Shown: positions 9,898-58,500 of the stretch, piece after piece | How the letters are laid out: each line of letters starts with the position of its first letter | Numbering within the stretch: position 1 is the stretch's first letter | Virus record (IMG/VR): IMGVR_UViG_3300009104_000020 | Span: 1 to 64,000 of that record | DNA: 64,000 nucleotides | Reading direction: 5' to 3' (one strand) | Source: a virus | Notes under the pieces: model-generated | Databases searched by the model: none | What the model was told of the DNA's origin: nothing | Seen by the model: the letters and a program-made list of their open reading frames with translations, nothing else | Translations under genes and position numbers: made by a program

Positions 9898-9940
9898 TAA
9901 AAAGCCAATAAAACTTGTTAAAAACTTAAAGCTTGCCGGT

Positions 9941-9950
9941 GTAACGCTAA
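9941..9950 (+). promoter_or_regulatory. variant GTAACGCTAA element
   Basis: One mismatch from GTAACACTAA. It lies 43 bases after the HU-like gene and 31 bases before ATG 9972, the same spacing as at other copies. AT-rich sequence (ACAATATAT) follows. I count it as a degenerate member because of position and spacing. Confidence 0.4.
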
Positions 9951-9971
9951 ACAATATATGCTGGGCGAGCT

Positions 9972-10139
9972 ATGTCAGACCTCATTCGACGATTAGAAGA
10001 AGCCCTCGCTGAACTTTCCATGTTTCAATGCCTTCCTACCTGCTCTAAAAGCATGAAAATAATCCAGTCTGCCCTAGATCGGGCCAATCAAATCGTCACG
10101 GGAGACTCATTAGATGATACTGATGGTAATCCTTCCTGA
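9972..10139 (+). CDS. small protein, unknown
   Basis: 55 residues from ATG 9972. Begins SDLIRRLEEALAELSMFQ and ends acidic. Its 3' end converges with, and overlaps by 44 bases, the leftward gene that ends at 10096. It is the last rightward gene before the leftward cassette and has its own variant promoter-like element. The family is not recognised. Confidence 0.45.
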   Translation: MSDLIRRLEEALAELSMFQCLPTCSKSMKIIQSALDRANQIVTGDSLDDTDGNPS

Positions 10140-10314
10140 CGCTGTCTAGCCAACGCTCAATTTCATCCAGAATATCCACGGGAACCTGATTCTTCGGCAT
10201 CGGACTCCTTACCAGTATCTTCATCTGGAACCCAGTTTCGTCTGCCACACAGGCTGCCCCAACCGCAAACACCATTCCCTCGGAGCATATCGTCAATATG
10301 AAGTATCTTGGCAC
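10096..10314 (-). CDS. small protein downstream of a pseudopilin, unknown
   Basis: 72 residues on the minus strand. A mildly hydrophobic start (PRYFILTICSEGMVFAVGAAC) is followed by a charged half (EIERWLDSVRKDYHQYH). Its start abuts the stop of the pseudopilin gene, so the two are probably one transcript. The family is not recognised. A role with the pseudopilin is inferred only from the arrangement. Confidence 0.45.
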   Translation of the reverse strand: MPRYFILTICSEGMVFAVGAACVADETGFQMKILVRSPMPKNQVPVDILDEIERWLDSVRKDYHQYHLMSLP

Positions 10315-10622
10315 TACTCGATTTCCTCCAAGAACGAACGAGCGTCATACCTCGGCCTGTGACAGTCGTGACAGTTGGCTTCCTGTGGTATCTCTATAAC
10401 CAACCTCCCGCTTTCCAACACCCCAACACCATATGACCTAACCGCTACACGGCAAGCCACCCTCTGGGCCTCCTCCTTCGCCTGACCAACCCCCGGCAAA
10501 AGCAAAGACACCAGCAGTATGATGATTACACATACCATCAGCAACTCTATTAGCGTCACCCCTTGATCCCTTCCTTTTTCCAGCCTGCGCTTTCCCCAGG
10601 GTACTCCTCGTTTATCCAGCAT
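10314..10622 (-). CDS. type IV pilin-like / type II secretion pseudopilin
   Basis: 102 residues on the minus strand. A basic leader of 21 residues ends in Gly, followed by VTLIELLMV: cleavage after G21 and the Glu at mature position 5 (E26) fit the prepilin peptidase and methylation rule exactly. About 20 hydrophobic residues (VCVIIILLVSLLLP) complete the class III signal. The mature part is short, about 81 residues, and includes CHDCH at 84-88. Such proteins assemble into pili or secretion pseudopili through host machinery. Opposite strand and cellular-type function suggest an acquired gene used on the host, perhaps to block pili or secretion; that is inference. Confidence 0.75.
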   Translation of the reverse strand: MLDKRGVPWGKRRLEKGRDQGVTLIELLMVCVIIILLVSLLLPGVGQAKEEAQRVACRVAVRSYGVGVLESGRLVIEIPQEANCHDCHRPRYDARSFLEEIE

Positions 10623-10903
10623 CCTCCCCCCATTATAATTTTAAACGGCATATAGCACCCACACCCAGCATTACTACCGCTATAAGGCCGACAACGGCGT
10701 AGGCTCCGATCAAAAAGCAAACACCTACTGCAACAACGATACTTTCTAGCAACCTCTTTACCACGACTTCCTCCTATCACCTTTACCATACTCCACACTA
10801 GGCGCAACTTATCCCTCACCGTTGCCCCCCCAAACTCCTCCTTCAACACCTCAAGCCACTCTTTGTAACGCTTTAGCCTGAACATAGGTGCAGAGAGTAG
10901 CAT
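10556..10903 (-). CDS. Cys-rich small protein, first gene of leftward cassette
   Basis: 115 residues on the minus strand (a second ATG at codon 7 is possible). The middle holds CCSRC, then C after a short loop (LRRCRPYSG), then GCGCYMPF: five or six Cys in about 30 residues, probably a metal site. The front is basic and helical. Its 3' end overlaps the pseudopilin gene by 67 bases, so they are co-transcribed. No clear ribosome binding site. The family is not named here. Confidence 0.5.
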   Translation of the reverse strand: MLLSAPMFRLKRYKEWLEVLKEEFGGATVRDKLRLVWSMVKVIGGSRGKEVARKYRCCSRCLLFDRSLRRCRPYSGSNAGCGCYMPFKIIMGGGCWINEEYPGESAGWKKEGIKG

Positions 10904-10969
10904 TGAAAGTGAAAAACGCCAGAAAGTTGAGAAGAGGGATGTATAGCTGCTGCCTTGGCTAGACGCCGT

Positions 10970-10990
10970 CCCCCCTCCCCCTACCCCCCC
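10970..10990 (-). repeat. G-rich tract on the minus strand, potential G-quadruplex
   Basis: The plus strand reads three C runs of 6, 5 and 7 bases separated by T and TA. Read leftward this is G7-TA-G5-A-G6. Four G-tracts of at least three can be drawn, enough for a quadruplex. It lies 67 bases upstream of the leftward cassette and just before the GTAACACTAT element, so it is placed to affect either transcript. Confidence 0.4.
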
Positions 10991-11006
10991 AAATGGGCCA
11001 AACGGG

Positions 11007-11016
11007 GTAACACTAT
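11007..11016 (+). promoter_or_regulatory. GTAACACTAT element before the structured RNA
   Basis: Nine of ten bases of the recurring element, at the left edge of the 1-kb region without genes. No open frame follows for 1 kb, so if this is a promoter it drives a non-coding transcript beginning near 11017-11022. Confidence 0.5.
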
Positions 11017-11994
11017 TTGGTTAGGGTGACAACGCAGTTCCTATAGGTGTAAGGCCTTACGGTCTTTGACATTGAGGGTGCAAGCCGGTGGATGCCGCTT
11101 GTATCCGTTGGGTTCAGTAGAGGCTTCCGCTAAAACGCATGGCGGCTACCAACCCTGACTGTACTAGATTTTCCGCAAGTTGCCTTGGCGACTATGTGTC
11201 GGGCGGAGACGGTCAGCGGCAAAAGGGTGCAAGCAAATAGTCAGCACCACGGCCATGTTAAATGTTAGCATCATCAGGAGTAAGTGACGCGCCTCATGGG
11301 ACACAACAAGCAATCAGCGGATTACCGAAAAACCGATGGAGAACGAAACTCCACGCAAAAAACAAATATTAGGCTTCGGCCAAAAATGCAGCGAGTAGGT
11401 TAATCCGGCTCCGAGAATGGAGTGTTCCACACAAACAAATCGTCATAATCATTGGAACATGGCGTGATAGTATGCGTCCCCGATAGCATGGGGCATAAGT
11501 AGGACGGTGCGACCGGCGAGGTCAGCAAATGCACCGTGGCAGCCGAATCAAGCGTATATTCCCAAAGTGGAGCATCAAAGAATGCGTGAAATAGTTTCGC
11601 CAATGAAGCGTTTGAGAGAGATTGGTCGAGAATGCGTGTGCGTTGAAGCTAGTGTTAAAAGCTAGTGACAGGAACGGCACGGGGTACGCAAAGTAAATCC
11701 CAAAGGGCAAGGGCCACAAGGCTCAAAGCTGATGGGTGTTGCGGCGAACCATAGCGAAACGGCATTAGTAGATGTTAGCAAGGTGGGTGTGCGGTAGTCA
11801 CTACGGTGGCGAGATACCTGATGAGGGAAATCAGACCTCAAGGATAGGCCGTGACAGCGGCGTGACAGATCCTGCTTAAAATCGTGGCATACGAGCGGCG
11901 AGCGTGTTCAAGCAACACCTTTGCAAGTCAACGCTGCTCAAGTGTCTAGTGCTTGTTGGCATTGCACTACTGATGATGACCAGCCAAAAAGGTC
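11017..11994 (+). ncRNA. candidate large structured non-coding RNA
   Basis: About 980 bases with no credible plus-strand frame. Complementary pairs recur along it: CAAGC 11081/GCTTG 11097; CCGC 11127/GCGG 11142 inside GTAG/CTAC; GGTGC 11226/GCACC 11244; CCATG 11253/CATGG 11295; TGGAG 11337/CTCCA 11349; GGC-TTCG-GCC at 11372; TGTTCCA 11423/TGGAACA 11453; ACGGTGC 11504/GCACCGT 11531 enclosing GACC 11511/GGTC 11520; CTGAT 11818/ATCAG 11830; AGGAT 11841/ATCCT 11869 enclosing GCCG/CGGC; GAGC+AGCGT near 11893/ACGCTGCTC at 11931; TAGTGC 11947/GCACTA 11964. Promoter-like elements flank it. Size and phage location recall GOLLD and ROOL RNAs, but I cannot assign it to either. Confidence 0.65.
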
Positions 11995-12004
11995 GAAACA
12001 CTAA
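11995..12004 (+). promoter_or_regulatory. variant GAAACACTAA element
   Basis: One mismatch from GTAACACTAA, 30 bases before ATG 12025, the usual spacing. It lies at the 3' edge of the structured RNA region, so the gene at 12025 may have its own start site or be read through from the RNA. Confidence 0.4.
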
Positions 12005-12024
12005 AACAAACGAAAGGAAAACAA

Positions 12025-12660
12025 ATGAGTAAGCAATACAAAACCATAAAAAACGGTGGATTAGTCAAGGTAGAGATCGACAGTTATCAAATCGCGATTC
12101 AAGGCACAACCGATATTCCGGCGGCGTCTTGGACAAAATACGACAGCTTGAACCAAGCAAGTTGGGCGAGCCAAGGGCTAATCAAGCTTGAATACAAAAC
12201 CGACAAGCATGGCAAGCGAACGGTCAAGCGATTAGCGGAAAATGCGGAGTTTTACCGCAAGCAACACAAGGCTTGGAAAGCAACCGAAAAGGCAATCAAT
12301 GATTCAATGCGGAAGATTGAAAAGGAAAACCCAACCCTGTCCAAGCAAAAGATGACCCTTGTCAAGGATGCGGATACCGGCGAGGTCAAGCGGTATGTGA
12401 AACGGGCAAGCTATAGAAACAGCGAACAACCCTTGCATATGCAGTTGAAAGGTGCGGAAAAGGTCAAGGCTACAGCGGCCAAGGATGCCAAGATACAGCA
12501 ACAATCGGAAGAAATTGCCAGACTCAAGAAAATGGTAGCCAATATCCCACCTGCCAAGCCGGTACAGATTGACCCGTTGGCGGCATATAAAGCGGGTGAT
12601 CCGGCACAACAGCAGCAGGTGATGTCTGCATTACAGACGCTTGGCTTGGTGACAGCCTAA
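12025..12660 (+). CDS. hypothetical protein following the structured RNA
   Basis: 211 residues, with GAAAGGAAAA before the ATG. Residues 1-75 contain aromatic and strand-like segments (VKVEIDSYQIAIQGTTDIP). The middle is a long basic helix (KQHKAWKATEKAIND). The tail has a coiled-coil piece (QQQSEEIARLKKMV) and a Gln run. No family is recognised. It is the only gene between the RNA and a strong terminator, so it probably shares a transcript with the RNA or is a partner of it; that is inference. Confidence 0.6.
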   Translation: MSKQYKTIKNGGLVKVEIDSYQIAIQGTTDIPAASWTKYDSLNQASWASQGLIKLEYKTDKHGKRTVKRLAENAEFYRKQHKAWKATEKAINDSMRKIEKENPTLSKQKMTLVKDADTGEVKRYVKRASYRNSEQPLHMQLKGAEKVKATAAKDAKIQQQSEEIARLKKMVANIPPAKPVQIDPLAAYKAGDPAQQQQVMSALQTLGLVTA

Positions 12661-12690
12661 CAGCAGCAGTAGCAGTAGCAGTAGCAGTAG
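12661..12690 (+). repeat. CAG/TAG triplet repeat after a stop codon
   Basis: Thirty bases made of two CAG triplets then four CAGTAG units, starting immediately after the TAA of the preceding gene and in its frame, so the frame is closed five times over (TAA then TAG four times). It lies between that stop and the terminator. Probably a slippage-prone microsatellite. Confidence 0.75.
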
Positions 12691-12691
12691 C

Positions 12692-12727
12692 GACCCTGCC
12701 CACCATCGGAGTGGGTGGGGTCTTTTT
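12692..12727 (+). terminator. strong intrinsic terminator
   Basis: GACCCTGCCCAC at 12692-12703 pairs with GTGGGTGGGGTC at 12711-12722 in a 12-bp stem with two G-U pairs, loop CATCGGA, followed by CTTTTT. It closes the transcription unit that includes the structured RNA and the gene at 12025. Confidence 0.85.
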
Positions 12728-12738
12728 GTAGCAAGATT

Positions 12739-12784
12739 TCCCTAGTGCATGGGCAGGTGTGCTAGGGACGGTTGAATCCTGCCC
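12739..12784 (+). promoter_or_regulatory. H-type RNA pseudoknot in the leader of the gene at 12808
   Basis: Stem 1: 12739-12749 pairs with 12758-12768 (11 bp, two G-U). The loop GGGCAGG at 12751-12757 is perfectly complementary to CCTGCCC at 12778-12784 (7 bp). Loop 1 is one base and loop 3 nine bases, the geometry of a classical H-type pseudoknot. It ends 12 bases before the GGAAAGG ribosome binding site. It could control translation, sense a ligand or protect the RNA end. Confidence 0.6.
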
Positions 12785-12807
12785 GTAACCCATAAGGAAA
12801 GGTAATC

Positions 12808-12972
12808 ATGTTAAGCAAAAGTGAAGTGAAAGAGTTGTTGGCCTTGGCGAGTGCCGAGATGGTGGATAGTGACACCCAAACGAATGGAATCCCTGACATA
12901 CAGGATGATGACGGCGAGGGTGTGGACATAGCGGTATCACCGACAGGAGAATTGGAGGTGGTGTACCTATGA
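12808..12972 (+). CDS. small acidic protein behind a pseudoknot leader
   Basis: 54 residues from ATG 12808, seven bases after GGAAAGG. Acidic in the second half (PDIQDDDGEGVDIAV). Its stop overlaps the next start (ATGA). It is the first gene after the terminator at 12.7 kb and the RNA pseudoknot. No recognised family. Confidence 0.5.
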   Translation: MLSKSEVKELLALASAEMVDSDTQTNGIPDIQDDDGEGVDIAVSPTGELEVVYL

Positions 12973-16056: not shown

Positions 16057-17403
16057 ATGACAGTAGCAGAAAAAAGCGTGAAGATAGTAGAGGTGATGCG
16101 GCAAGTGCTGGCATCAAGCAAGAGGCCCAGCAAAGAGGACGAGCAGAAGGTTCTCGACTGGGTGAACGGAGGCGAACACGGGAGTGACTACTTCAAGTCC
16201 CTTGAATCATGGCTGGACAGCGGCCCTAATCAGGTGGCTGTTAAAACCGTGGCCATGTTCCTTCAGGACGGAGACACATCTAGGTTTACCAACTTGGATG
16301 TAGCTGTAGATGGGGGTCGCCTCGTGTGTGAGGATGAGGAGGAGCAAGAGGATAGTGGCTGGACGCCCATCGTCATTAAGGATAGCGACATAGATGCGGG
16401 CCGCTTGTTTGGAGACAAGGCAGCCTACATTCAGGAGCTAGTTAACAACCACGCTCAACCTGTGTACGAGTTACACAAGAAAGAGGAGGCGGCGTGGGAC
16501 AGGGAGAAGCATCGCATGATGGCAGCAGCCAAGAAGATGGCCAAGCGTCCCGCTGCCGGAGGCGAAGAGGCGGAGGAGTTCGAGCCTATTGTTCCCCCGG
16601 TGGACAAGCACTTTATCGTGTCGCCAAAGGTTAAGAAGATGGGCAAAGCCTTGTGTTCCTCTACAAGCGAGAGGTGTAAGAAGGTTAGGGCCGAGGGGCC
16701 ACCGTCATCAGGCAAGTCTGATTGGTGTGTGTGGTTGGCGGCCACGGAGAAGCGACCCTTCTTCAGCATTAACTGTGCAACAGTTAGGGAGCCACAACAA
16801 TGGTTCGGTGAGCCGCAAGCAAAGAAAGGCTCTACCTACTGGCGAGTGTCGGAGTTCGTCAAGGCAATCGAGTTGGGCGGATGTGTTGTGCGCTTGGAGG
16901 AACTGAACAGGTTATCCTCCTACATACAGAATCCCCTGCTTGAGTTGCTTGAGGATGGACGCACCCATGTTGAGGGTTATGGCATGGTAGAGATAGGGCC
17001 GGACACCATCTTCATAGCAACCATGAACATAGGGTTACAGTACCAAGGGACATACAAGATGTGCGAGTCCCTGCTGTCACGCTTTGCCATCAAGGTGGAG
17101 TTCAAGCCGTTAACTGAATCGCAGACGGTCAAGACATTGATTGCAAGGACAGGCATAAGCGAGGATGTAGCCAAGAAGCTGGCCGCAATCAAGGCACAGG
17201 TAGATGCAAAGACAGGGGTGGTGGGGACAGGATCATACGACAAGCCCATCACATACAGGCAACTGGAGGCAGCGTGTCACCTGTATCCCAGCCTTGGAAA
17301 CGAGGCAATCAGAGTGACCATCCTCAATCACTACGACAACGACGGACACGACAGCGAGAGATCCCAATGCTTGAAGCTGGTGGCTGGCGTGGGCTTGGCG
17401 TAA
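16057..17403 (+). CDS. MoxR/CobS-type AAA+ ATPase
   Basis: 448 residues. The first 190 are unique to this protein and acidic to helical. The AAA+ core has Walker A GPPSSGKS (K220), Walker B VVRLEELNR (E281-E282), sensor 1 TMN (N324) and Arg finger LLSRF (R342). ELNRLSSYIQNPLLELLEDG fits the MoxR/CobS/dynein branch. Such ATPases work as rings with a VWA-domain partner to remodel a target or insert a metal ion. The partner is the next gene. The stop codon lies inside a GTAACACTAA element. Confidence 0.8.
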   Translation: MTVAEKSVKIVEVMRQVLASSKRPSKEDEQKVLDWVNGGEHGSDYFKSLESWLDSGPNQVAVKTVAMFLQDGDTSRFTNLDVAVDGGRLVCEDEEEQEDSGWTPIVIKDSDIDAGRLFGDKAAYIQELVNNHAQPVYELHKKEEAAWDREKHRMMAAAKKMAKRPAAGGEEAEEFEPIVPPVDKHFIVSPKVKKMGKALCSSTSERCKKVRAEGPPSSGKSDWCVWLAATEKRPFFSINCATVREPQQWFGEPQAKKGSTYWRVSEFVKAIELGGCVVRLEELNRLSSYIQNPLLELLEDGRTHVEGYGMVEIGPDTIFIATMNIGLQYQGTYKMCESLLSRFAIKVEFKPLTESQTVKTLIARTGISEDVAKKLAAIKAQVDAKTGVVGTGSYDKPITYRQLEAACHLYPSLGNEAIRVTILNHYDNDGHDSERSQCLKLVAGVGLA

Positions 17404-17409
17404 CACTAA
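17400..17409 (+). promoter_or_regulatory. GTAACACTAA element, on the MoxR stop codon
   Basis: Exact copy; the TAA of the ATPase gene is bases 2-4 of the element. The VWA gene starts 69 bases further on. It would allow separate transcription of the VWA partner. Confidence 0.5.
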
Positions 17410-17468
17410 CACCAAGAAGGCAAGTTTGGTATCGGGACGACTACACCAAGAAACAGAAAGGAAAAAAC

Positions 17469-19481
17469 ATGAGTTGGTTTGAAAAAGAACTGGACTACGC
17501 AAGTGGTAACTACGACAGCGAAATAGATACACAGCCCTCAAAGGGTAGCCTTACGGGGAGACTGTGGGATTACATGGGGCCAACAAACTGGAACTGGAAC
17601 TCTAGCGCAAGGTCTGATCCAGACAGGGAGAGCAGGGAAAAGATACAGCGAGAGGTGGCGGGTACGGTGAACCTGTTGAACAACAGCACGGACGGCAACG
17701 AGAAGTCGCTGAAGCTGGGGTTTGCCAACAACCATGACAGGCGAAACGATATAGGATCAGACACGGTCGTCATGCCAGCGGACATAGCAACCTCGGCTGG
17801 GTCAGAGGAGAATGCGATTGATGTTATGTCAGGCATGGCGTTGATAGCATCGACAATGAAAGCAACGGTAGACTTCCATGCTTACGAGGATGCTCTTCGG
17901 TTGGTCGAAACCTGTGGAACAAACAGGGCAGTAAAGGGTGGTCACTACATATGGACAGCGATTGAACAGGCAATAGCAAGGCGGGCTGTCTCTGATAAGT
18001 GGCCGGGGTTTGACTCCTACTTCGACGCGCATCGAAACTATTCCTCCCGTGTAGAGGGTAAGGACATAGACAAGATGATCGAGGTAGACAAGGCAAAGGG
18101 AGTTGCGGGCGGCATAAGTAGAGGCACGGCGATGGTAGCTGCTGCATTCAACACCCTGAACCCAAGGGAAGCCAAGCTAATGAGCGATGGAAGGATGCAT
18201 AAGGTAATGAACCTGATCGCAGACATAGCGTTGGACAGCGAGAAGAAGGACAGGTTTGCCAAGTCAACTAACATAGCTGATTTTATTTATCGGGCCTTCG
18301 AGAGCGAGGAGGATGAAGAGGATGGGGACGGTGAGGGAGACGAGAGCGGGGGCGAAAACAAGCCAGAGGAAGGGGGCAAGGAAGGAGACAAGGATAATGA
18401 AGAGGAGAGCAAGGATAATAAAGAGGAGGACAATCCGTTTAAGAACCTCCCGGATCAGGCAGACATGAGCTTGTTCGGTAACGAAGTTAACCACCTCTTG
18501 TCGGACGATGAAGAACCGTTGCCTGTTGATGAGCTAGTCCTTCCCAGAATCTCAACCAGAGAGGGAGGCCCAGCAAACATATTGGTGTACGGCTACCCTA
18601 AATCGTTGGTCAAGGCGAGGCAGAAAAAGTACAAGGATAAGGTGAGTGAACTGAAGGGAGAGATCAGAGCCGTGGTCAACAGCCTATTGTTTATGAACAA
18701 CCACCCTGAAAGCCACATCCACGGAATGCGACACGGCACACTTGACTCCGGCTCACTTCACAAGCTGGCTATTGATACTGATAACCCAACAGTATTTGAG
18801 CAGGTGGAAAACATAACCGGCAAGAGGATAGCTGTGTCCCTGCTGATAGACAGGTCAGGCTCGATGATTGCGACCTCAACATACGACGAGGAAAGGGTGG
18901 CAAAGACAACCAGACAAGATGACGCCAACCAAGTTGCGATGATACTTATTGAGGCATTGAGCAAAATTGATGGCATCAACCTGAATGTTCACACTCATTG
19001 CACATACCCCCACCGTCCAGCGGAACTAAAGAAGGAGATTCATACGGGGCATACCGGCACGATCAGCGACGACATGACAATCCACGACATAGTAGTGAAT
19101 GGTGATGACGCAAGGGAAATGCTTGTCGATCTCTCTCCCGGCGGCAACAACCTCGACGGGTATGCCATCAAGTATATAGCTGAAGGGATGAGCAAGGACT
19201 ACCATGACTATGACGACAGGGTTCTGTTTGTTATTAGTGATGGCCAACCCCACGCCAGTTACTACGGAGATTACGGTGCGATGCGCCATGTTGGAGACTG
19301 TTGCTCGTTTAGCAGGGAGGTTTACGGAACAGATGTTTACGGGATAGGCGTGGCCAACGCATTCGACGAAGACGAAGGGAAGACAATGTACGGGGAGGAC
19401 AAGTTCATAATACTGGAAGATGTGACACCATCTATTAAGGTGATGACCTCGTTCCTTCGCAAGGTAGCAGTTAAGAGATAA
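17469..19481 (+). CDS. VWA-domain protein, CobT-like partner of the MoxR ATPase
   Basis: 670 residues from ATG 17469 with GAAAGGAAAA in front. Residues 1-270 are helical. About 278-322 is a highly acidic linker of Glu/Asp/Gly/Lys, like the one in CobT. The C-terminal VWA domain has the metal site D461-x-S463-x-S465 (LLIDRSGSM) and FVISDGQPH. MoxR plus VWA pairs act as chelatase- or remodelling-type machines. In a phage they could modify a host complex or help virion assembly; which is unknown. Confidence 0.75.
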   Translation: MSWFEKELDYASGNYDSEIDTQPSKGSLTGRLWDYMGPTNWNWNSSARSDPDRESREKIQREVAGTVNLLNNSTDGNEKSLKLGFANNHDRRNDIGSDTVVMPADIATSAGSEENAIDVMSGMALIASTMKATVDFHAYEDALRLVETCGTNRAVKGGHYIWTAIEQAIARRAVSDKWPGFDSYFDAHRNYSSRVEGKDIDKMIEVDKAKGVAGGISRGTAMVAAAFNTLNPREAKLMSDGRMHKVMNLIADIALDSEKKDRFAKSTNIADFIYRAFESEEDEEDGDGEGDESGGENKPEEGGKEGDKDNEEESKDNKEEDNPFKNLPDQADMSLFGNEVNHLLSDDEEPLPVDELVLPRISTREGGPANILVYGYPKSLVKARQKKYKDKVSELKGEIRAVVNSLLFMNNHPESHIHGMRHGTLDSGSLHKLAIDTDNPTVFEQVENITGKRIAVSLLIDRSGSMIATSTYDEERVAKTTRQDDANQVAMILIEALSKIDGINLNVHTHCTYPHRPAELKKEIHTGHTGTISDDMTIHDIVVNGDDAREMLVDLSPGGNNLDGYAIKYIAEGMSKDYHDYDDRVLFVISDGQPHASYYGDYGAMRHVGDCCSFSREVYGTDVYGIGVANAFDEDEGKTMYGEDKFIILEDVTPSIKVMTSFLRKVAVKR

Positions 19482-35261: not shown

Positions 35262-37151
35262 ATGGCAAATACCACATTAGTATCAGCGGTTGGCAATTGC
35301 ACCCCTCGGCACATTCTTGTCGATGACAGCAAGGGCTGTTCGCTTACTCGGGCCAACATAACGGCCTTTAAACGCAGCGACTTTGAGGCTCAAGCGGCCA
35401 AGGAAGTCGGGATGGACAGGATCATCGCACAGACCGCCGAGGCTCGCCTTGCTGGTATGCACGAGAAATCTCTGTATGACTTGTTATTGTCACGCCATGT
35501 GGCTCTGGGCGAGAAATCCGGTAGCGGTTCGCAGTCTGTAATTGCACCGTTCACTCTGGTTCCGCGCAGAAACACGCTGAACTTTAACTACTTCCAGATT
35601 GAGGCGCAGTCTGTTGCTGTTTCAAGCGGAGCCTTCACGGCTTTCACTTCGGTTGCGGACATCAAACCTGGGGTCGCCCACACTACTTATGGCTATATCC
35701 CAAACTCGGCCATCGTGTTTACGGTGAACGCCGGGACTGACGGCTCTCCTTCTGGTAATGCAAATGCCCTGACTAACACTAACTTCAACAAGAGTCAGGT
35801 TCAGAATATCGAGAAATACTTCAATCCGGGTGCATATGTTAATGTTATGACCAATGGTCACGCCGATAACCTTGGCGCAAACAACACCATCGGAGACAAG
35901 GCTACGGTTTACCTTCAGTACAAGGTGTATGCCGCTGAGAATGCTGACGCAGGTGGCGTCTCAAAGGCTAGGGTTGTCATGGCTCCTAGTGAACACGCTG
36001 GATCTTCAGCAAGCGATTCTCTTTCCACCGGATGGAGTTCGGTAAGTGCTGGCGATAAGGCTGATGCAGGTTACAACCTAATTAAGGGAACCGGCATGAT
36101 TATGGGCAACTCGGTGAGCGACTACGAGAAGTGGTGTCACCAAGGGCCAGCAGTCAATGACCTTACCTTGATAGAATACTGGTCACAGACTCAACGCCAC
36201 ACGACTCAGTTCAATGAGGAATATATCAAGGCTCTCCAAGCTCCGTTAACTTCCGAGTATTTCAAGAAGTTCCGGCAGTTGCCTCTAGCCCAACAGCGGA
36301 AGCAACAGGAAGCCTACCAGCAACACGCCTTTACGAACACGGTGTTCTACGGGCAGCGGATTAACGGCAACCAAACAGTAGAGGGTTACACTAATCTGCC
36401 TACGGTTGTTGATCCTAATGCTGGTGCTACGGCTCCGTTTGGGTCTGATAGTTGTAGTTCTGCCCCGACGATTGAGTACAAGTCCAACACGCTTGGTATT
36501 CGTACACAGTTGAACGAGTGTTCCCGCACTTGGGACAACGCTGGCGCGGCATTGAACTTGGATGTCTTGTTCGAGACTATCTATATGCTGAAGCGTGAAC
36601 GCGAGAATTCTGGTGGCACGGTGGATACCATCGACGCCATGACGGATCGCTTCACCTCTGCCAAGATTCGAGACTTGATGACCAAATACTACAAGTCCAA
36701 GTATTCTACTGACCTGACGCTGTTCATGCAGCCGAAGCAGCAGATTACCTTCGAGGGCAAGGTGGTCTTTGAGTACAACAAGTACGACCTGCCGGATCAA
36801 GGAGTTAGCTTGGCTGTCTTCACGGACACCTTCTTTGACGACAAGCTGGGGGCAACCCTATCTGCCAACGACGGAGCCGCTTCTACCAAGAATGTGGGTC
36901 GCCAGCTTTGGCTGATTGACTGGTCTGATATCGCTATCAATGTCCTCAAGACTGCGAGCGTGAAGCGTCAGACCAATACCGCTGATGATCTCTATAACTG
37001 CGTGATTCAGCCCAATGTCTCCCACTATCAGTTAAATAGTAAGACATTTGAGGTGCGTGTAGGAAACACCAACCGCCACGCTTTGGTTGAAAACTTCAGC
37101 GATGCCTCACCTAGCGTGAGTGTTTCTGGAGCCGATGTAACTATCACATAA
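35262..37151 (+). CDS. major capsid protein
   Basis: 629 residues with the best ribosome binding site in the window (AGGAGGT at 35247-35253) and a strong terminator after it, as expected of the most abundant protein. Position after the scaffold supports it. The sequence is mixed: RSDFEAQAAKEVGMDRIIAQ near the start, strand-rich domains with many Gly/Asn, and a C-terminal VGNTNRHALVENFSD. HK97-fold is assumed from position; it is longer than common capsid proteins, so an inserted domain is likely. Confidence 0.7.
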   Translation: MANTTLVSAVGNCTPRHILVDDSKGCSLTRANITAFKRSDFEAQAAKEVGMDRIIAQTAEARLAGMHEKSLYDLLLSRHVALGEKSGSGSQSVIAPFTLVPRRNTLNFNYFQIEAQSVAVSSGAFTAFTSVADIKPGVAHTTYGYIPNSAIVFTVNAGTDGSPSGNANALTNTNFNKSQVQNIEKYFNPGAYVNVMTNGHADNLGANNTIGDKATVYLQYKVYAAENADAGGVSKARVVMAPSEHAGSSASDSLSTGWSSVSAGDKADAGYNLIKGTGMIMGNSVSDYEKWCHQGPAVNDLTLIEYWSQTQRHTTQFNEEYIKALQAPLTSEYFKKFRQLPLAQQRKQQEAYQQHAFTNTVFYGQRINGNQTVEGYTNLPTVVDPNAGATAPFGSDSCSSAPTIEYKSNTLGIRTQLNECSRTWDNAGAALNLDVLFETIYMLKRERENSGGTVDTIDAMTDRFTSAKIRDLMTKYYKSKYSTDLTLFMQPKQQITFEGKVVFEYNKYDLPDQGVSLAVFTDTFFDDKLGATLSANDGAASTKNVGRQLWLIDWSDIAINVLKTASVKRQTNTADDLYNCVIQPNVSHYQLNSKTFEVRVGNTNRHALVENFSDASPSVSVSGADVTIT

Positions 37152-49559: not shown

Positions 49560-52500
49560 ATGGCAAACCAAATAGTAGATTTCTACCGCCAGCAGAACCC
49601 TACCTATACGGGAACTGATGACAGCATTACCCTGCTTTACGCAGAGGAGTACGCCAATGAACTTCCAAATCTGTTAAAGACCTACCCGGATTTCGCACAA
49701 GACTACAAGAGGATCTATGACCACGCATTCCCTGTAACCGCCGGGGATAGGGCCAAGCAAGCTGCTGGATCACTAATCAAAGGGGTGACAGGAACAATCG
49801 CCTCAATCCCCGAGGCGGTAGGCATAGCGCGGGCTGAAACTTTTGGGCGGGGGCTGGGTGTGGGGACTACCGATTATCGGGAAACCTTAATGGGCCAGTT
49901 AGCTGAAGGGATTCGCGGCGTGGGCGAATGGGCAGCACCAGAGGTTGCGGAAGCCAAGGCCGAGAACATGGCCGATGACTTTTGGACTACGGTAGTTCCC
50001 GGTGCATTTGGTTCAGGCGTAGGATTCCTTACCACAGGTGGCTTAACGGGCATGGGGGTAAGGACGGCCGCTGGTGGGATGCTGGCGAAGGGAGGGGCTA
50101 GGGTTGCCACAAAGGAAAGCGATAGAATGGCCAAGGTGCTTTCCGGCGGATTGCACTCCCCGGCAGTCAAAAACATCTCCCAGAAAGCGGGCAAAGGAGC
50201 AAGCGACCGTTACTTAAAGAAGAAGGCTAGGCAAATAAACGCCGGTAGTATTGCTGCTCTAGGTTCAGCCGCAAACGCCACGGCAGGGTATAAGGACGCC
50301 CTCGCTAACGGAGCAACACCTGAACAAGCTTTATCATCCTATCTACTTAACGGACTTGTCGGCACAAGCGAGGCAATGCCTTTGGCAAGAATGCTTAACC
50401 GACTGGACAATGCGAGTGGTGGGACATTGATGTACTACCTCGCCAATGCAGCACCAGAAATACTGGAGGAATCCCTTCAGGAAGCAATGCAATCGGCTGC
50501 CGGGGACATCATTGCAGCCAACATCGTTAAGTATGACCCCGACAGGGTGATGTATGAGCATCTAGAACGCGATGCGGCTGCCGGAGGTGTGTCCGGTGGG
50601 CTTCTGTCCATCATCACATCTGCATTAAGCCGGAAAGCAAAGCTTTTAGAGGACAAGAAAGCTGGAAGGTTCGTGGAGGATGAAGGCTTTGTCCCCGGTG
50701 AGGGTGAAGAAACGGTTACGGACGCCAGGGGGCGGTACAAGGGTGGCAGAGAGGGTGACATAACCAAGCTTGCCATGATGGTGGCCCTTCAGCGGCAGGA
50801 CGATCCAACCGGGCAAGATCAAGAGGCATGGGCGAAGCTTCGGCAGGCTCACGAAGAGGTAATAGGGAACGACCCTGATGCCCAGATGATATTTGAGGCT
50901 GAAATCTTTAATGCCGACTCAGACCTTGCCGCTGACCGTGCAGCCAACGTAATCAACACGGAGCTGGGAGAGATCGCTAACCCGGAGAAACGGAAGAGCC
51001 GCGCCGTAGAGTCAACCATAAGCCTTGCACCGGCAGACATAATAGGGGCAGAGGAGGAGCTTGACCCAGAACTGGAAGAGAATTTCGCAAACTACAAGGG
51101 CGAACTGCTAGAGGAACGCAACAGTCTTGTAGGCGAGTTGATGGAGGTAAACAACAATATCAACTTGGCCAAAGCCGGTATAGAAGATTCTGCTGTTGAC
51201 CCGGATCAAAGGGCTGCCTACGAACAGATGCTTGTTGGCAGACGGGGGGAGCTAGCTGGAAGAATACAGGCCATCAACGCAGAGATCGAAGGCATAGACC
51301 AGCGACTGTCAAAGGTGGGTCGGGCCACGCCGGACATTGACCTTCTTGATGTCCCGCAAACATTCGACCCGGAAGCCAGAAGAGAAGAAGCAGAGCAGGC
51401 TTTAGATATTGAAACCCGGCTGGTCGCAAGACTGCGTGAAGAACTTGCAGAGCTTGAAGAGCTTGAGAAGGAAGAACTAGACACGGCAGAGAAACAAAAG
51501 TATTGGGATGACTTACACCAAGAACTAGCAGATGACCGCGCCGCGCTGGAGGAACTTCGCGACCAGATGGAAGCTCAACTGTTGGACAGGCTGGCCGCAT
51601 TAGAGACGACAGACACCAGCGAGTTTTCCGAGGAGGACTTACAGGGCCACGCAGAACTAGTTCAGATTACTAGGGAACAACTGGAGGGAGGAGTAACTTC
51701 CGGGCAGGCCGCAGCAGCCGTCGGGTTAACCTCTGACCAGTTAAGCAGGCTGGTTCGATACACGGAAGGCAACACGGACTGGAACAAACACCGGCCAACC
51801 CCGGCAAAACTAGTTCCAAGAAGATTAGGTGGGGCAAGGACAGTCGGGACTGCTCAAGACTTGACCTCCCTAGAGCGACGCAAGGCTAGGGTAGAGAGTG
51901 AAATTGCGGGGCTTAAAAAGAAACCGGCAACAAAAAAAGCTCCGGTCAAAACACAAACTAAAGCAGCTGTAGCAGCAACGGAGCAACACAGGAAAACGCG
52001 GGGGGTTGTCCGAATCCTTCCAACCATTGAAGGAAAGACTCAATTAGAAAGAGCCGAACAGGAGCTTGCCGGAATAAAGGCTGACATCGCTAGAATAAGG
52101 GAAGCTGAAACAGTTGTAAGAGGCCCGGATCAATTAACGGCAGGCGAACTGAACGCCGCAATCAAAGGCCAAAAGCTGCTCATCAAGAGGCTGGAGAATC
52201 GTGTGGCTGCCGGTGAAACGGTATTCAAGGGAACCGGACAATCCATCCTGTCAGAAATAGAGGCCCGCAGAAAGCTGGTCGAAGAACTGGAAGCTAAACA
52301 CGCAACAAAGAAAAAAGCGCAACAGACAGCAGCAGAATTTGACACAGAGAAGAACGCCAAGAAATCACAAACCCTCGGAATAGAGCAAGCCCTTGACCAA
52401 GCCGAAGAGCAAAAAACAGCCGCAACCAAGAAGTTCGACAGACTGGTTGACTCTCTAAAGGGCCTGTCTCCAGAGGAAAGAACTAAACTAGATCAACAAA

Positions 52501-55500
52501 AAGCCAACATTAACGCTGTTAACAGGCTGGATAAAAAGATTAGTAATAACATAAAGAAGATAGACAGCCTTGAGAAAAGGATCAGCAAAGCTGTAAAACA
52601 AAGCACAAAAGATAATCTCCGAAAACAATCCAATGCATTAAAGTCTGAGAACACAAAGTTAAGCAATGATAAGCGGCTAATAATCGGTGTAGAAAGTGGC
52701 CTGACGAAGGAAGAGGCGCTAGACCCGGAAACGGATATTCAAGATACCAAGAAGGCGCAGAACGATGCCATTGTTGATGATTGGGTTGATGCCAATAACG
52801 AAGTCACTAACACACAACGCGAGTTACGGGATGCCAGCAAGCGTGATCCGCTGGATGTCAGGAATGTTGAGATCATATCCCACTTCGGTTCTGACCGGGG
52901 GCTGGCCGAATACGGAAGGGGAGACACAAACAAGCAAGACAGGGAACTGAAGGCAGGGCCAGCTTACTATGAGGTAGGAACAAACGACACAACCCAAGCA
53001 ACCAAGTGGGGCAGGGAAGCGACAGAGACTTTAAATAAATATAAAAAAGCCACGAGCGAAGAGGAAAGAACAAGGCTGGCTCAACAACTCGCCTCCCAAC
53101 TGGCAAGGGGCGCAAATGTCCGTGGAACATCTGGAGTGTCCCGCAGGGGAATTTCATTCATTGCCCCAGATGGAAAGATATGGGTGCTAGGGATAAGCCG
53201 CAGCGGGAAGGACAAAACCAGCTACAGCCTAGTGCCGCCAAAGACAGATCCAAATGACAATGTTGGTTACGAAGGCGTACTGTTTGAGGACTTGCTGGCC
53301 CAAGGGTTTATTCCGTTTGCTGCGATTCGACTTCGGAACCCGGCTGTCAGGCTTAACTACAAGATAGAGTCTGCTGAAGAGTATGAGAACATAGTAGCCC
53401 CCATAAAGCGGGAGGTTGTCGATACGCCTGCATTCATGGAACAAGTGTCTCAGGGGCCGATTAGTAAAACGGTTTCCTTGAACGCAATCATCGAGAAGGT
53501 TGAGCCGGTGTTTGATGCTGGGACTGTATCAAGGACGGGTATTCGCCTCGGTGAAACAGATGCAGCAAGAGCCGCGAGCCGAACCTCCCCCGTTGACGAA
53601 CCAACAGAAATAGGAGAAGGGCCAGTTACCCCGGCAGAAGCTATCGTCGAGGCTGAAGAAATTGTAGAAGATATAGAAGTTAAAATCCTGACGGAAGAAG
53701 GTGCTGGCAATGTTTTCGACATACTGAACAAGGTAGACGACACACCTGTAGAAGTTGTGGTGAACCCGGAAACGGGCCTTGTGGTGCAAAGCGAGGAAGA
53801 TTCGATCAGTAGCGTCGAAGAGGCGATTGACGAGGTTATAGAATCGGACGAACAACTCGATAACCTTGTCGAAACACTAGGCAAGGCTTCCGCAACCAAG
53901 GGCATAAGGTTTGTAGAATTTTTAACAGATCACATACTAAAGATTTATGAAGAAAACGCAGGATCAAAAGAAGCGTTCGTTGAGGCGTTCCTCGGTAGCG
54001 ACTCTGCTCAAATTATTGGCGAGCAAATACGAGCAGAAGCATTCAACGAAGAACTCAATCGCGACGACACAAACCAGCAGCTAGATAATCTGGTTGCCAA
54101 AAAGCAAAAGGAAGAGTCAGACCCGAACTCTAGAGAGGATACTGTTGCCGAAGAAGAACAGGAGGCTTGGGATGTTGTCTTCCCACCAGGGGAGCCTGTC
54201 ATGTCTGTTCCTCTAGGGTTAGGCGGCCCGACGGGCAGTATTTCCGGTTACTCAACATTCGACAGGTTATGCGAAAACTGCTCCGGGAAGGTGATGCGCT
54301 TTTTCAAGGACATGGGGATACCTGTAACTTATGCTGTCATCACATCCAAAAGCCCTGTAGGAAAAGGGAATATAGCCCATTGGGTTGCAGTCGTAAATAT
54401 TAACGGAAAGACTTATGTTGTAGATGATCCACAAACCAACTTGATAGAGGACGCGCCGGAAGCTGGTGAGGTTGAATCAACTAGAGAGAGGTACATTGGC
54501 GAGGCCCCTGAAATGGAGGGTCAAGGCAGAGTTATCAAGGACACTTTCGATCCTGTACTAATCCCTGTCACACCAGAAGCTCTGGAAGCTGCCTACGGAC
54601 AGACTATAAAAGAGGAAGTTCTAATTAAATCGGGGGTATTGAAGGGTGATGTGTTTTCTGAAAGCTACAATCAGGTAGAGAGAAACATAGAAAAAATTAC
54701 CAAGGCAGCGGCAGAGATTGGTGGGGCAACTGAAACACAACAAGAGGAAGCACCTGCTCCCAAACCGTTCGTCGCCAACGAAATCAACAAGGACGGCGAG
54801 ACGGTACGGATGACCTCCGAGCAGTACCAAGACCCTGCCTTTAGAAAAGCTAACAAACTTGATCCGCTTGAATACTTTGTAGACGAGAAGACCAAGAAGA
54901 AAATGCTGGTTAACCAACCCTCGTCAGGGCCGGACATCACCAGAGATCGCAATGCTCCAGACAGGCCTCACAGCGCATACCCAAGAGTTTCCCAGCATAA
55001 GCTAAACAAGATTTTCGCATACCTGATAGAACGACTACGCACCTTGGGTGTGCAGGTGGAGGTGACTGAAAGAGAGTTTGCCAACGCAGCGACTAAAGCC
55101 AAGGCAATGTTCGGGTTCGCCAATGGAAAGCCGATCATCGTGCTGGCCATGAACTCTCTGGAGAACGCAACCACACAGAATTTATACGACCTGCTTCACG
55201 AGATTGGCCACGCTGCGACAGCGGATATGCCCAAAGAGGCTAGGCTGCGGGTGCTGGCTGCCATTGCCAAGCTCAACGATTCAGTCCTCAAGATACCGGG
55301 ACGCAAGTACAGGATCCCATTGGACGAAGCTGGCGAACTTGATGCTGAGATCGAACAGGAGGAGAGGTTGGTTGAAGCTATTGCACAAGCGTTGATAAGC
55401 GAGAACTTTGACCCGACAACGGCTAACACTCTAGCTAGTAAGATTGTCAGGTTTTTCCGTAACCTTATGCTGGCCGTTAAACAGGCTTTCCATCGCATGA

Positions 55501-58500
55501 TGGGTCACGACGGCGAGGTTGCGCTGAACTATTTCAAGGCACAGGTCGAGGCAATGCTTACAGGCAATGAGGCTCCGGCATATTTAAGCTGGGTTTCTGG
55601 GTATAAGTATTCTGTCAGCGAACGGATGGACTCAATGGAGCTTGAGGATTCTGATTCCGTAATTGATTCGATATATGACCTAGCCGGTTTCAGCAAGGAA
55701 TACAAACTGGTGGTTGGAGATTCGCCAGAGGCAGTTGAGCATAACATCAGATGGGCCGGGATACGGTTCACCGTGGAGAGGGATGACCTTTCACCTGAAG
55801 ATCTGGCTGCATCAAGGATGAGAGCGCAAAGGATTATAGCATCTGATAACGCTCTTAACGAAATACTGATCGGCCTGCACGACACATTCAGGCGCACAGG
55901 AGGCAGCCGGTTTTCCGGGATCAGCAGGGAGGAATTCGTAAACCTGCTTACCAACGGGAAACTTCCTAGTGACAGGATCAAGGCAGCCATAGAGGCATCA
56001 AAGGACGAATCGCTTGCCAACACGCAGATGCAAGACCTTGAAGGTGAGGAGGCAAAACAATCTGCCGCTGTCATGCTTCACAGGCATCTGTCATCCATTG
56101 AAACCAGACTCAAGAATCTCAGCGACGAAGCTAATATTGAGCTATCAGAAAGCGTCCCCGGTTCCTCGGTAAACAAAAACAAGAAAGCACACGAAGACCT
56201 TATAAAGCTGACCACCAAGTATGAGGATCTTGGGGTTATGCAGGATCATATCTACAGGATTTCAAATGAACTGATAAACGGGATGGCAGAGAAAACTGAT
56301 AAGACCATCCCCAGGGTTCTGAAGGAGCTTGGATTAAAGGCAACAGCAAAAGAGATTGAAACAGCTAGAAACAAAAGGCTGGGTGATAAATTTATTGATG
56401 CCCTTGAATATCTCTCAACCGAGATTACCGAGTGGGGAAGGGGTACTGCCAAGTCAATACAGAAGAAGATAGCCCTACTTGGCAACCCTGTAACTGACAT
56501 CCTCAATGACCCGGCCACCCTAGCGTTGGCCATATCCATTGGAAGAAACCAGAAAACAGCAATGGCTCTGCTCGCCTTACGCAGGGAAGATATGCAAGGG
56601 ATGAAGCAGGCGTTCAACAAAGCTCTTGCCGCATCCATCTCAGGGAACGTGAAGGCTGCACTTAATGGGTGGAACACAAAGGTAAACAGCAGTACGAGAA
56701 CAGACGCTCCCTTTGAAAGGATAGCAACTAAACTGCGAAAGGTATTAGATAAAATAGCCAAGGCCCAAAAAGTATCCGAAGCCACTCGTGAGGACTTGGA
56801 CGAGTATGAAAGGAGAAATGCTTTATACGAAAAACTGACTGACCCCATTGCAGAGTACAAGGAAGAGGTTGGTGCGATCTTCGGGAAAGAAAGCGTATTG
56901 CCTAATTGGTTAGCCACCAAGGATGGAAAGGGTGGGCAGCAATGGAAAGAGTGGGCAGCCATAGACGGGGCCGTGTATGTAGTGCCACCAAACCCAGCGG
57001 CCAGCCTGAACGAACTAAAGAATCCGAAGAATCATAGCAAGCTTGACCTGATGGACATAAAGAACATTGGGCAGATTGTTAGGGACATCGAGAAGATGAA
57101 CGCTTGGCTGCTGGCCCAGCCTATAGAACGCAGAGGTGGCGAGTACAACATGATTAAGCGCATGGTGGACAGGATGACTGAGTTGCAGGCCATTCAATAT
57201 CACCGTGAGTTAGGCAACAGCCTTGTCGTTCGCCTTATGGGAAGCTTAACTGACAGGCTGGAGACGGTGGGAACGCCTGCGGCATCCAAGATTGCGGCAC
57301 AACTTAAAAGGTTTGCTTATTACATAGCTTCATATGCTGGCCACGGAAGTAAGTCTGCAATCCGCAATGGCAAGTTGTGGAGTAACAAGCTTCAAAAGGC
57401 CAGAATCAAGATGAAGGACGCAGGCCTTAACTATGACCTGAAGACATTCAAGAGGGTTATGTATGGCCCTGCGATGCAATACTTTCACCACAGAAGAGAC
57501 ATACTCAATGACGCGCCAAACCGCGAGACAGGCGAGGACAGGTTGATCGAGTCTTGGCTGAACAGTAAAATCTCGTCCGACCCCATAATGAAGCCAGCTA
57601 TTGACGCAGCTAGAGGTGAGCTTCGGGCGTTCTATAAACAGACGGCAGTTAATTCCAGACAGATAGCTGATGTTGCCTCGAAAATGGGAGTGATGGTTTA
57701 CGACGACGAGGGTGGTTATTTCAGGGAGAGAATTGGATCAAGCCTGACGACCACCATGAGGCACACAAACGACACAGCAAAGAATGTTTGGCGATTCATG
57801 TCACCTGTATGGGGTCATAACAAAAGGAAAGAAAGCGAACTCGCTGGGGTATCAGAACGCCCGGATGCAAACAATTTAACTGAAGAAGAGTTCAATGATT
57901 ATGTGGCGAACAGATTTGGGGACTTGCGAGTTGTAGGCGAATTTGTTTTTCCCATTGTTCTCAGGCCCGGAAGCAGCGTGTTTTACGACATAGACGGATC
58001 TGTCCTTCCCAGAAAGTGGGTGCTGGATTCCCTACAGGAAAACGTAGGCCCAAGTGGGAGCAACATGGTTGGGTTCCTTAACTCCCTTACAGAAAGAGCA
58101 GGGATAGAGAAGGATGATGTCAGGAGGTTTCAAGCTGGCATCGTAAACAGGTTCCAGAGTTTCTTCGACAAGCTCGATTCCGTGGTCGACCAGCAAAACA
58201 AAGAGAGCGGCTTCCTTGGAGGCAAGGCTGCTGTTCCTATTCATGTAATGATGGACGCCCGCAAGTTCAATGATTTCCCCCTTGAGTGGGTTGATTACGC
58301 AGACTTCACGGAGCGCAGGATGTATCAGTTTGTAAAGAACCTATCCGCTGAAGCCGCATTCGGCAGGGACATGGTGCAGGTACATAACGACTTTGCCCTT
58401 GCCCGTAATGACATAGGTGCAGCTATGGCGTTGCACGAGGAAATAGAAGCCGAGATTGGGAAGATGGGTTTGCTCAGTAGGCTAGGGCCAGCTTGGCTTA

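Follow-up and report, generated by a model that had tools for sequence, protein, structure and literature searches.

The question raised by this locus is what is encoded in the longest gene-free gap of a phage genome. The window is the 64,000-nt stretch analysed here, a part of a 64.8-kb virus record. The phage encodes a terminase large subunit, a DnaB-type helicase, a DnaD-like loader and a tyrosine integrase, and its 629-aa protein (35262–37151) is probably the capsid protein. No relative of the 629-aa protein or of the genes flanking the gap is seen among INPHARED phage records, and BLAST against phage and plasmid records gives nothing useful. No credible gene is found in the gap, 10904–12024, and no gap of this kind in the window is longer. 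It belongs to the window's longest stretch without a plus-strand ORF of at least 60 aa (9898–12024), the left half of which is occupied by minus-strand genes up to 10903. The only ORFs inside the gap are on the minus strand (67 and 65 aa), and neither has a family match. The lack of a credible plus-strand frame, reported in an earlier note on this DNA, is thus confirmed and extends to the minus strand.

The gap is flanked by a small group of minus-strand genes (10096–10903) and by a plus-strand gene for a 211-aa protein (12025–12660). The nearest gene of the minus-strand group, a divergent neighbour encoding a Cys-rich small protein (10556–10903), serves as the synteny anchor based on alignment and searches. 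In the same group, a small protein at 10314–10622 carries the N-terminus of type IV pilins/pseudopilins (N_methyl), and a full 328-aa version is present at the same place in the contig L060. The 211-aa protein has no match in Pfam, PHROGs or NCBIfam. A homologue of its gene, the first after the putative RNA, is found at the same place in the relative L063; another contig retrieved with this protein, L002, proved unrelated. The transcription unit likely ends at an intrinsic terminator on the plus strand (12692–12722), a 12-bp stem followed by a T run. This strong terminator, with a low local folding z, lies in a second gene-free stretch of 308 nt (12661–12968). Elsewhere in the window, an AAA ATPase adjoins a CobT-like protein at 16057–19481, comparable to the cobaltochelatase pairs of phages, and for a 3731-aa ORF at 49560–60755 neither Pfam nor PHROGs gives a noteworthy family match.

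The answer favoured here, held with somewhat better than even confidence, is that one long plus-strand non-coding RNA is transcribed from the stretch, an antiterminated leader that is cut from its mRNA by a ribozyme. This RNA would head an operon, and its transcription would start after a GAAAGTTGAGA-N9-TATA element. The leader, composed of a C-rich tract, a covarying hairpin and a boxA-like site, resembles the antitermination leader of rRNA operons. Judging from this motif, the host polymerase with NusB/NusE would escape termination by Rho while it transcribes the long untranslated stretch. A hammerhead-like ribozyme motif at 11941–12002 is predicted to cut the transcript after C11946. The cut would free an RNA of about 1 kb and leave the 211-aa gene with its own 78-nt leader. 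In L063 a twister ribozyme would take the place of the hammerhead. The putative RNA body corresponds to 11072–11946 on the plus strand, and a gene-free stretch occupies the same place in L063, L090, L091 and L102. As a guess, the freed RNA could be a scaffold or a host-takeover RNA, comparable to the orphan RNAs that other phages produce in abundance.

The 5′ edge of the gap (10922–11071) is a module common to about 20 viral contigs. It consists of GAAAGTTGAGA, 9 bases, TAT, about 25 bases, a C-rich tract and a hairpin, with boxA in some copies. The promoter-like element GAAAGTTGAGA-N9-TATA at 10922–10945, the start of the module, is unique in the window, where none is expected, and recurs in some 20 viral contigs and in four MAGs of Verrucomicrobiota; it presumably reads in the plus direction. 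The C-rich tract (10970–10990, plus strand) is at a similar distance in all module copies. The leader hairpin (11006–11031, plus strand) contains two A-G mismatches in the window phage. Across 16 phages it shows 18 two-sided cells, where shuffles give 8.0, and 82.7% of its cells are paired against 25–46% when the hairpin is slid. Its U-G pairs fit the plus strand. The spread of the module and this covariation with plus-strand U-G pairs support the long-RNA reading. The earlier note placed promoter-like elements at both edges. Sigma-70-type promoters are absent (1.4 expected); the left edge does have the conserved promoter-like element, which is of another kind, and the right edge contains the hammerhead-like motif and no promoter. 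Likewise, among the proteins scanned there is no phage RNA polymerase able to read the unusual promoter.

A search of 257 Gb of genomes with the module pattern gives only four matches, all in MAG contigs labelled Verrucomicrobiota. Because the pattern is limited to this phylum among genomes, the host of the window phage probably belongs to Verrucomicrobiota. A role as a general host promoter was rejected, since the module is present in only 2 of 195 genomes. Three of the MAG copies (L146, L148 and L149) have no evident large RNA. Those in L148 and L149 are immediately upstream of ankyrin-repeat lipoprotein genes, and those in L146 and L149 are near tRNA genes. These copies may be a remnant, an attachment site or a shared promoter.

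The boxA-like antitermination site GGTCTTTGACA is at 11061–11071 on the plus strand and has two mismatches to TGCTCTTTRACA. The match is 10/12 in the window phage and 12/12 in L063 and L125, where the exact boxA is located 127–145 nt from the module start, a distance that matches that in the window. An exact boxA is also seen at the start of the gene-free stretch of L098; none is found in L090, L091 and L102. Genomes of the presumed host phylum contain boxA-like sites upstream of 16S rRNA. The exact copies in three relatives, the close copy in the window and the sites of the host phylum argue for the long-RNA reading, which is weakened by the three relatives without boxA. In rRNA leaders the hairpin precedes boxA. 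The same order here suggests, from the motifs, that the leader serves antitermination over a long untranslated RNA. The leader elements of rRNA operons are named boxB, boxA and boxC (PMC10250234). As in those leaders, a hairpin and then a boxA-like site follow shortly after a probable promoter and precede a putative long untranslated RNA (PMC10250234, PMC4807359). Unlike them, the module has an additional C-rich tract and an unusual promoter-like element; its boxA departs from the consensus by one or two bases in the window phage, and some relatives lack it.

At the 3′ border, a descriptor scan for type I and type III hammerheads gives a single match in the 64 kb, both strands included: a type III motif on the plus strand at 11941–12002, the last 62 nt, with the predicted cut at 11946/11947. 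Stem I has 6 bp (TAGTGC/GCACTA), stem II 4 bp (GACC/GGTC) and stem III 5 bp (AGTGT/ACACT). The core is CTGATGA at 11970–11976 and GAAA at 11995–11998, with the pair T11945–A11998 (A15.1-U16.1) and C11946 as the cut-site nucleotide in GUC. The core is not free of insertions, as one extra nucleotide (T11977) precedes stem II. The same descriptor gives 12 matches in 76.8 Mb of shuffled sequence, one of them with at least 15 bp. The chance of a match of the observed strength is about 1e-5 per given kb, a figure that is optimistic because the motif was spotted by eye before the descriptor was written. Even if several ribozyme classes are allowed for, a chance origin of the motif looks unlikely. The Rfam hammerhead models, including Hammerhead_3, give no score to the motif, and a standard energy model prefers an alternative fold by 1.7 kcal/mol. 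According to a reference listed in PMC6155905, an extra nucleotide in the core has a precedent in a viroid, and variation of the core is known among the hammerheads of phages (PMC3088659). The motif shares with phage hammerheads all core bases, the three stems and an intergenic place in a phage (PMC3088659, PMC6155905), and differs from them by the extra nucleotide between A9 and stem II and by the lack of a match to Rfam models.

In L063, an Rfam search detects twister-P1 at 10157–10229, the last part of its gap. Its score of 44.4 bits is below the curated cut-off of 67.2, with E-values of 1e-6 over all families and 4e-10 in its own record. The predicted cuts, placed at the cleavage sites known for the two classes, are 78 nt (window, hammerhead-like) and 82 nt (L063, twister) before homologous start codons. 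The presence of ribozyme motifs at matching places supports the long-RNA reading. The support is reduced by the lack of an Rfam score, the extra core nucleotide and the alternative fold of the hammerhead-like motif, and by the sub-threshold score of the twister. Matches to twisters (Rfam RF03160, RF02684) border the gene-free stretch or the next gene in the relatives L063 and L133, whereas the twister models have no match in the window genome. In L133, the stop codon of the first gene is followed after 4 nt by twister-P5 (10485–10540, plus strand) and, 800 nt further downstream, by a weaker twister-P1 (11336–11407, plus strand). This pair could serve the release or circularisation of an RNA.

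The locus was traced in other viral contigs via DnaB, then the Cys-rich minus-strand gene, then the DNA pattern; the earlier note had proposed to collect homologues. After the module, 0.6–1.1 kb without credible genes are present in the window, L063, L090, L091, L102 and L133, while other module-bearing phages have only 150–330 nt. L089 and L098 have a gene-free stretch of 1.2 kb after the first gene instead (3840–5071 in L089), which has no Rfam match. These two stretches are 92% identical. Relative to column-shuffled alignments their alifold z is -8.9, compared with -1.0 to -3.2 for coding controls from the same pair. As coding controls descend to -3.7 in these tests, weight is given only to values below that. 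L090 and L091 (54% identity) reach -4.2 with 28 two-sided changes; the support is only moderate because their controls reach -3.7. In a home-made fold-and-align program, L090/L091 score z 3.4 (2.3 on structure alone), as do L100/L104, two partial relatives on non-circular contigs; L102/L104 give nothing. Conserved structure of the gene-free stretch is therefore well supported in one pair (L089/L098), which adds to the case for a long RNA, and moderately supported in two (L090/L091 and L100/L104). The energy z-scores of L102 (-4.6) and L133 (-4.1) were given no weight, since values of -5 also occur in 400-nt windows of L102 that lie outside its gap. No common structure is detected between the gap of the window and that of L063, the closest and only full-length syntenic relative, a single-relative comparison of low power. 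Covariation, proposed as a check in the earlier note, is found in the leader hairpin and supported for the body in other relatives; for the body of the window phage, the comparison with L063 shows none.

L090 and L091 share a second conserved gene-free stretch, which separates the Cys-rich gene from the module by about 400 nt. It has 74% identity and an alifold z of -3.7 (plus) and -4.0 (minus), so the RNA may be on either strand. The two contigs also contain manA RNA-like elements below Rfam's cut-off (L090:4395–4581, plus strand, E 2e-8; L091:172–358, minus strand, E 9e-7), and a tRNA adjoins the one in L091.

The folding of the window gap itself is at the level of dinucleotide-preserving shuffles. 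The stems named in the earlier note exist: ACGGTGC at 11504 with GCACCGT at 11531, TGTTCCA at 11423 with TGGAACA at 11453, AGGAT at 11841 with ATCCT at 11869, and GGC-TTCG-GCC at 11372. Their density, taken there as exceeding chance, does not: perfect stems within 60 nt number 33 at 5 bp or more (29.2 ± 5.2 in shuffles), 12 at 6 bp or more (15.9) and 8 at 7 bp or more (6.5), and tetraloop hairpins number 3 (2.4). The folding energy z is -0.79 on the plus strand and +0.80 on the minus strand, and no 120-nt window inside the gap falls below about -1.7 on either strand. An energy no better than that of shuffled copies had been named beforehand as a sign against a structured RNA, and on energy alone this sign is present. 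The main argument of the earlier note therefore fails, and the long-RNA reading is weakened by these values and by the absence of a common structure with L063.

It is very improbable that the gap belongs, as a divergent form, to GOLLD, ROOL or any other large RNA described so far. The gap resembles them as a phage-encoded gene-free stretch of similar size with no known function (Rfam; PMC12286853), which speaks for membership. Against it, the Rfam covariance models, GOLLD and ROOL included, give no match at the gathering score or, with permissive filtering, at any E up to 10, the relatives likewise give none, and the 64-kb window contains no tRNA gene, whereas GOLLD and ROOL usually lie near such genes. 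An elaborate covarying fold of their kind is not seen here in the energy z or in the low-power comparison with L063, and the ribozyme-like 3′ end and the boxA leader also distinguish the window phage. The membership considered in the earlier note is accordingly rejected, while its broader idea of a large phage RNA is probably right. The stems are not the reason; a discrete plus-strand RNA is indicated by the module at the 5′ edge, by the boxA-like site and by the resemblance of the 3′ end to a ribozyme. A likeness is also offered by the Vibrio phage ICP1, in which an orphan RNA of about 800 nt was seen by RNA-seq (PMC7567579). Both phages lack tRNAs and have about 1 kb of gene-free space outside known families; the RNA of the window is only predicted, and the likeness is drawn from the description in that paper, not from sequences.

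An unlikely but more serious competitor is a plain long 5′ leader of the 211-aa gene, in which the relevant parts are the promoter module and the antitermination site, the intervening 870 nt are a weakly constrained spacer, and the resemblance to a hammerhead is due to chance or is a relic. The chance-level energy and stem counts, the missing structural conservation with L063 and the short leaders of other module-bearing phages all agree with it. It accounts poorly for six phages that keep 0.6–1.1 kb here despite compact genomes, for ribozyme motifs at the 3′ border in the two closest phages and for the structure conserved in other relatives. Less probable still is a DNA element without any RNA, such as a replication origin, a packaging site or an attachment site. 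The divergent genes, the G-rich/C-rich tract, a change in the sign of GC skew near 10–11 kb, the integrase gene and the module being single-copy at its locus in host-phylum genomes, in two of them near tRNA genes, could be read that way. There are no iterons, though, and the skew merely tracks gene direction; boxA, the twister and hammerhead motifs and the U-G covariation are RNA features with plus-strand polarity. On balance, a large RNA at this locus remains the better-supported expectation.

It can be speculated, tentatively and at less than even confidence, that phages of Verrucomicrobiota carry a class of large RNAs organised like an rRNA unit (special promoter, hairpin, boxA) with interchangeable ribozyme ends, hammerhead or twister, and that the RNA acts independently during infection. 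If the long-RNA reading is true, the locus would combine, unusually, a large orphan RNA of a phage with antitermination in the style of rRNA operons and with ribozymes whose self-cleavage sets the RNA end. Two unrelated ribozyme classes, equally far from the starts of homologous genes, would clearly exemplify a swap or convergence of ribozymes, and phage ribozymes would gain a testable job. The module would also serve as a tag for recognising, by sequence, phages with probable hosts in Verrucomicrobiota.
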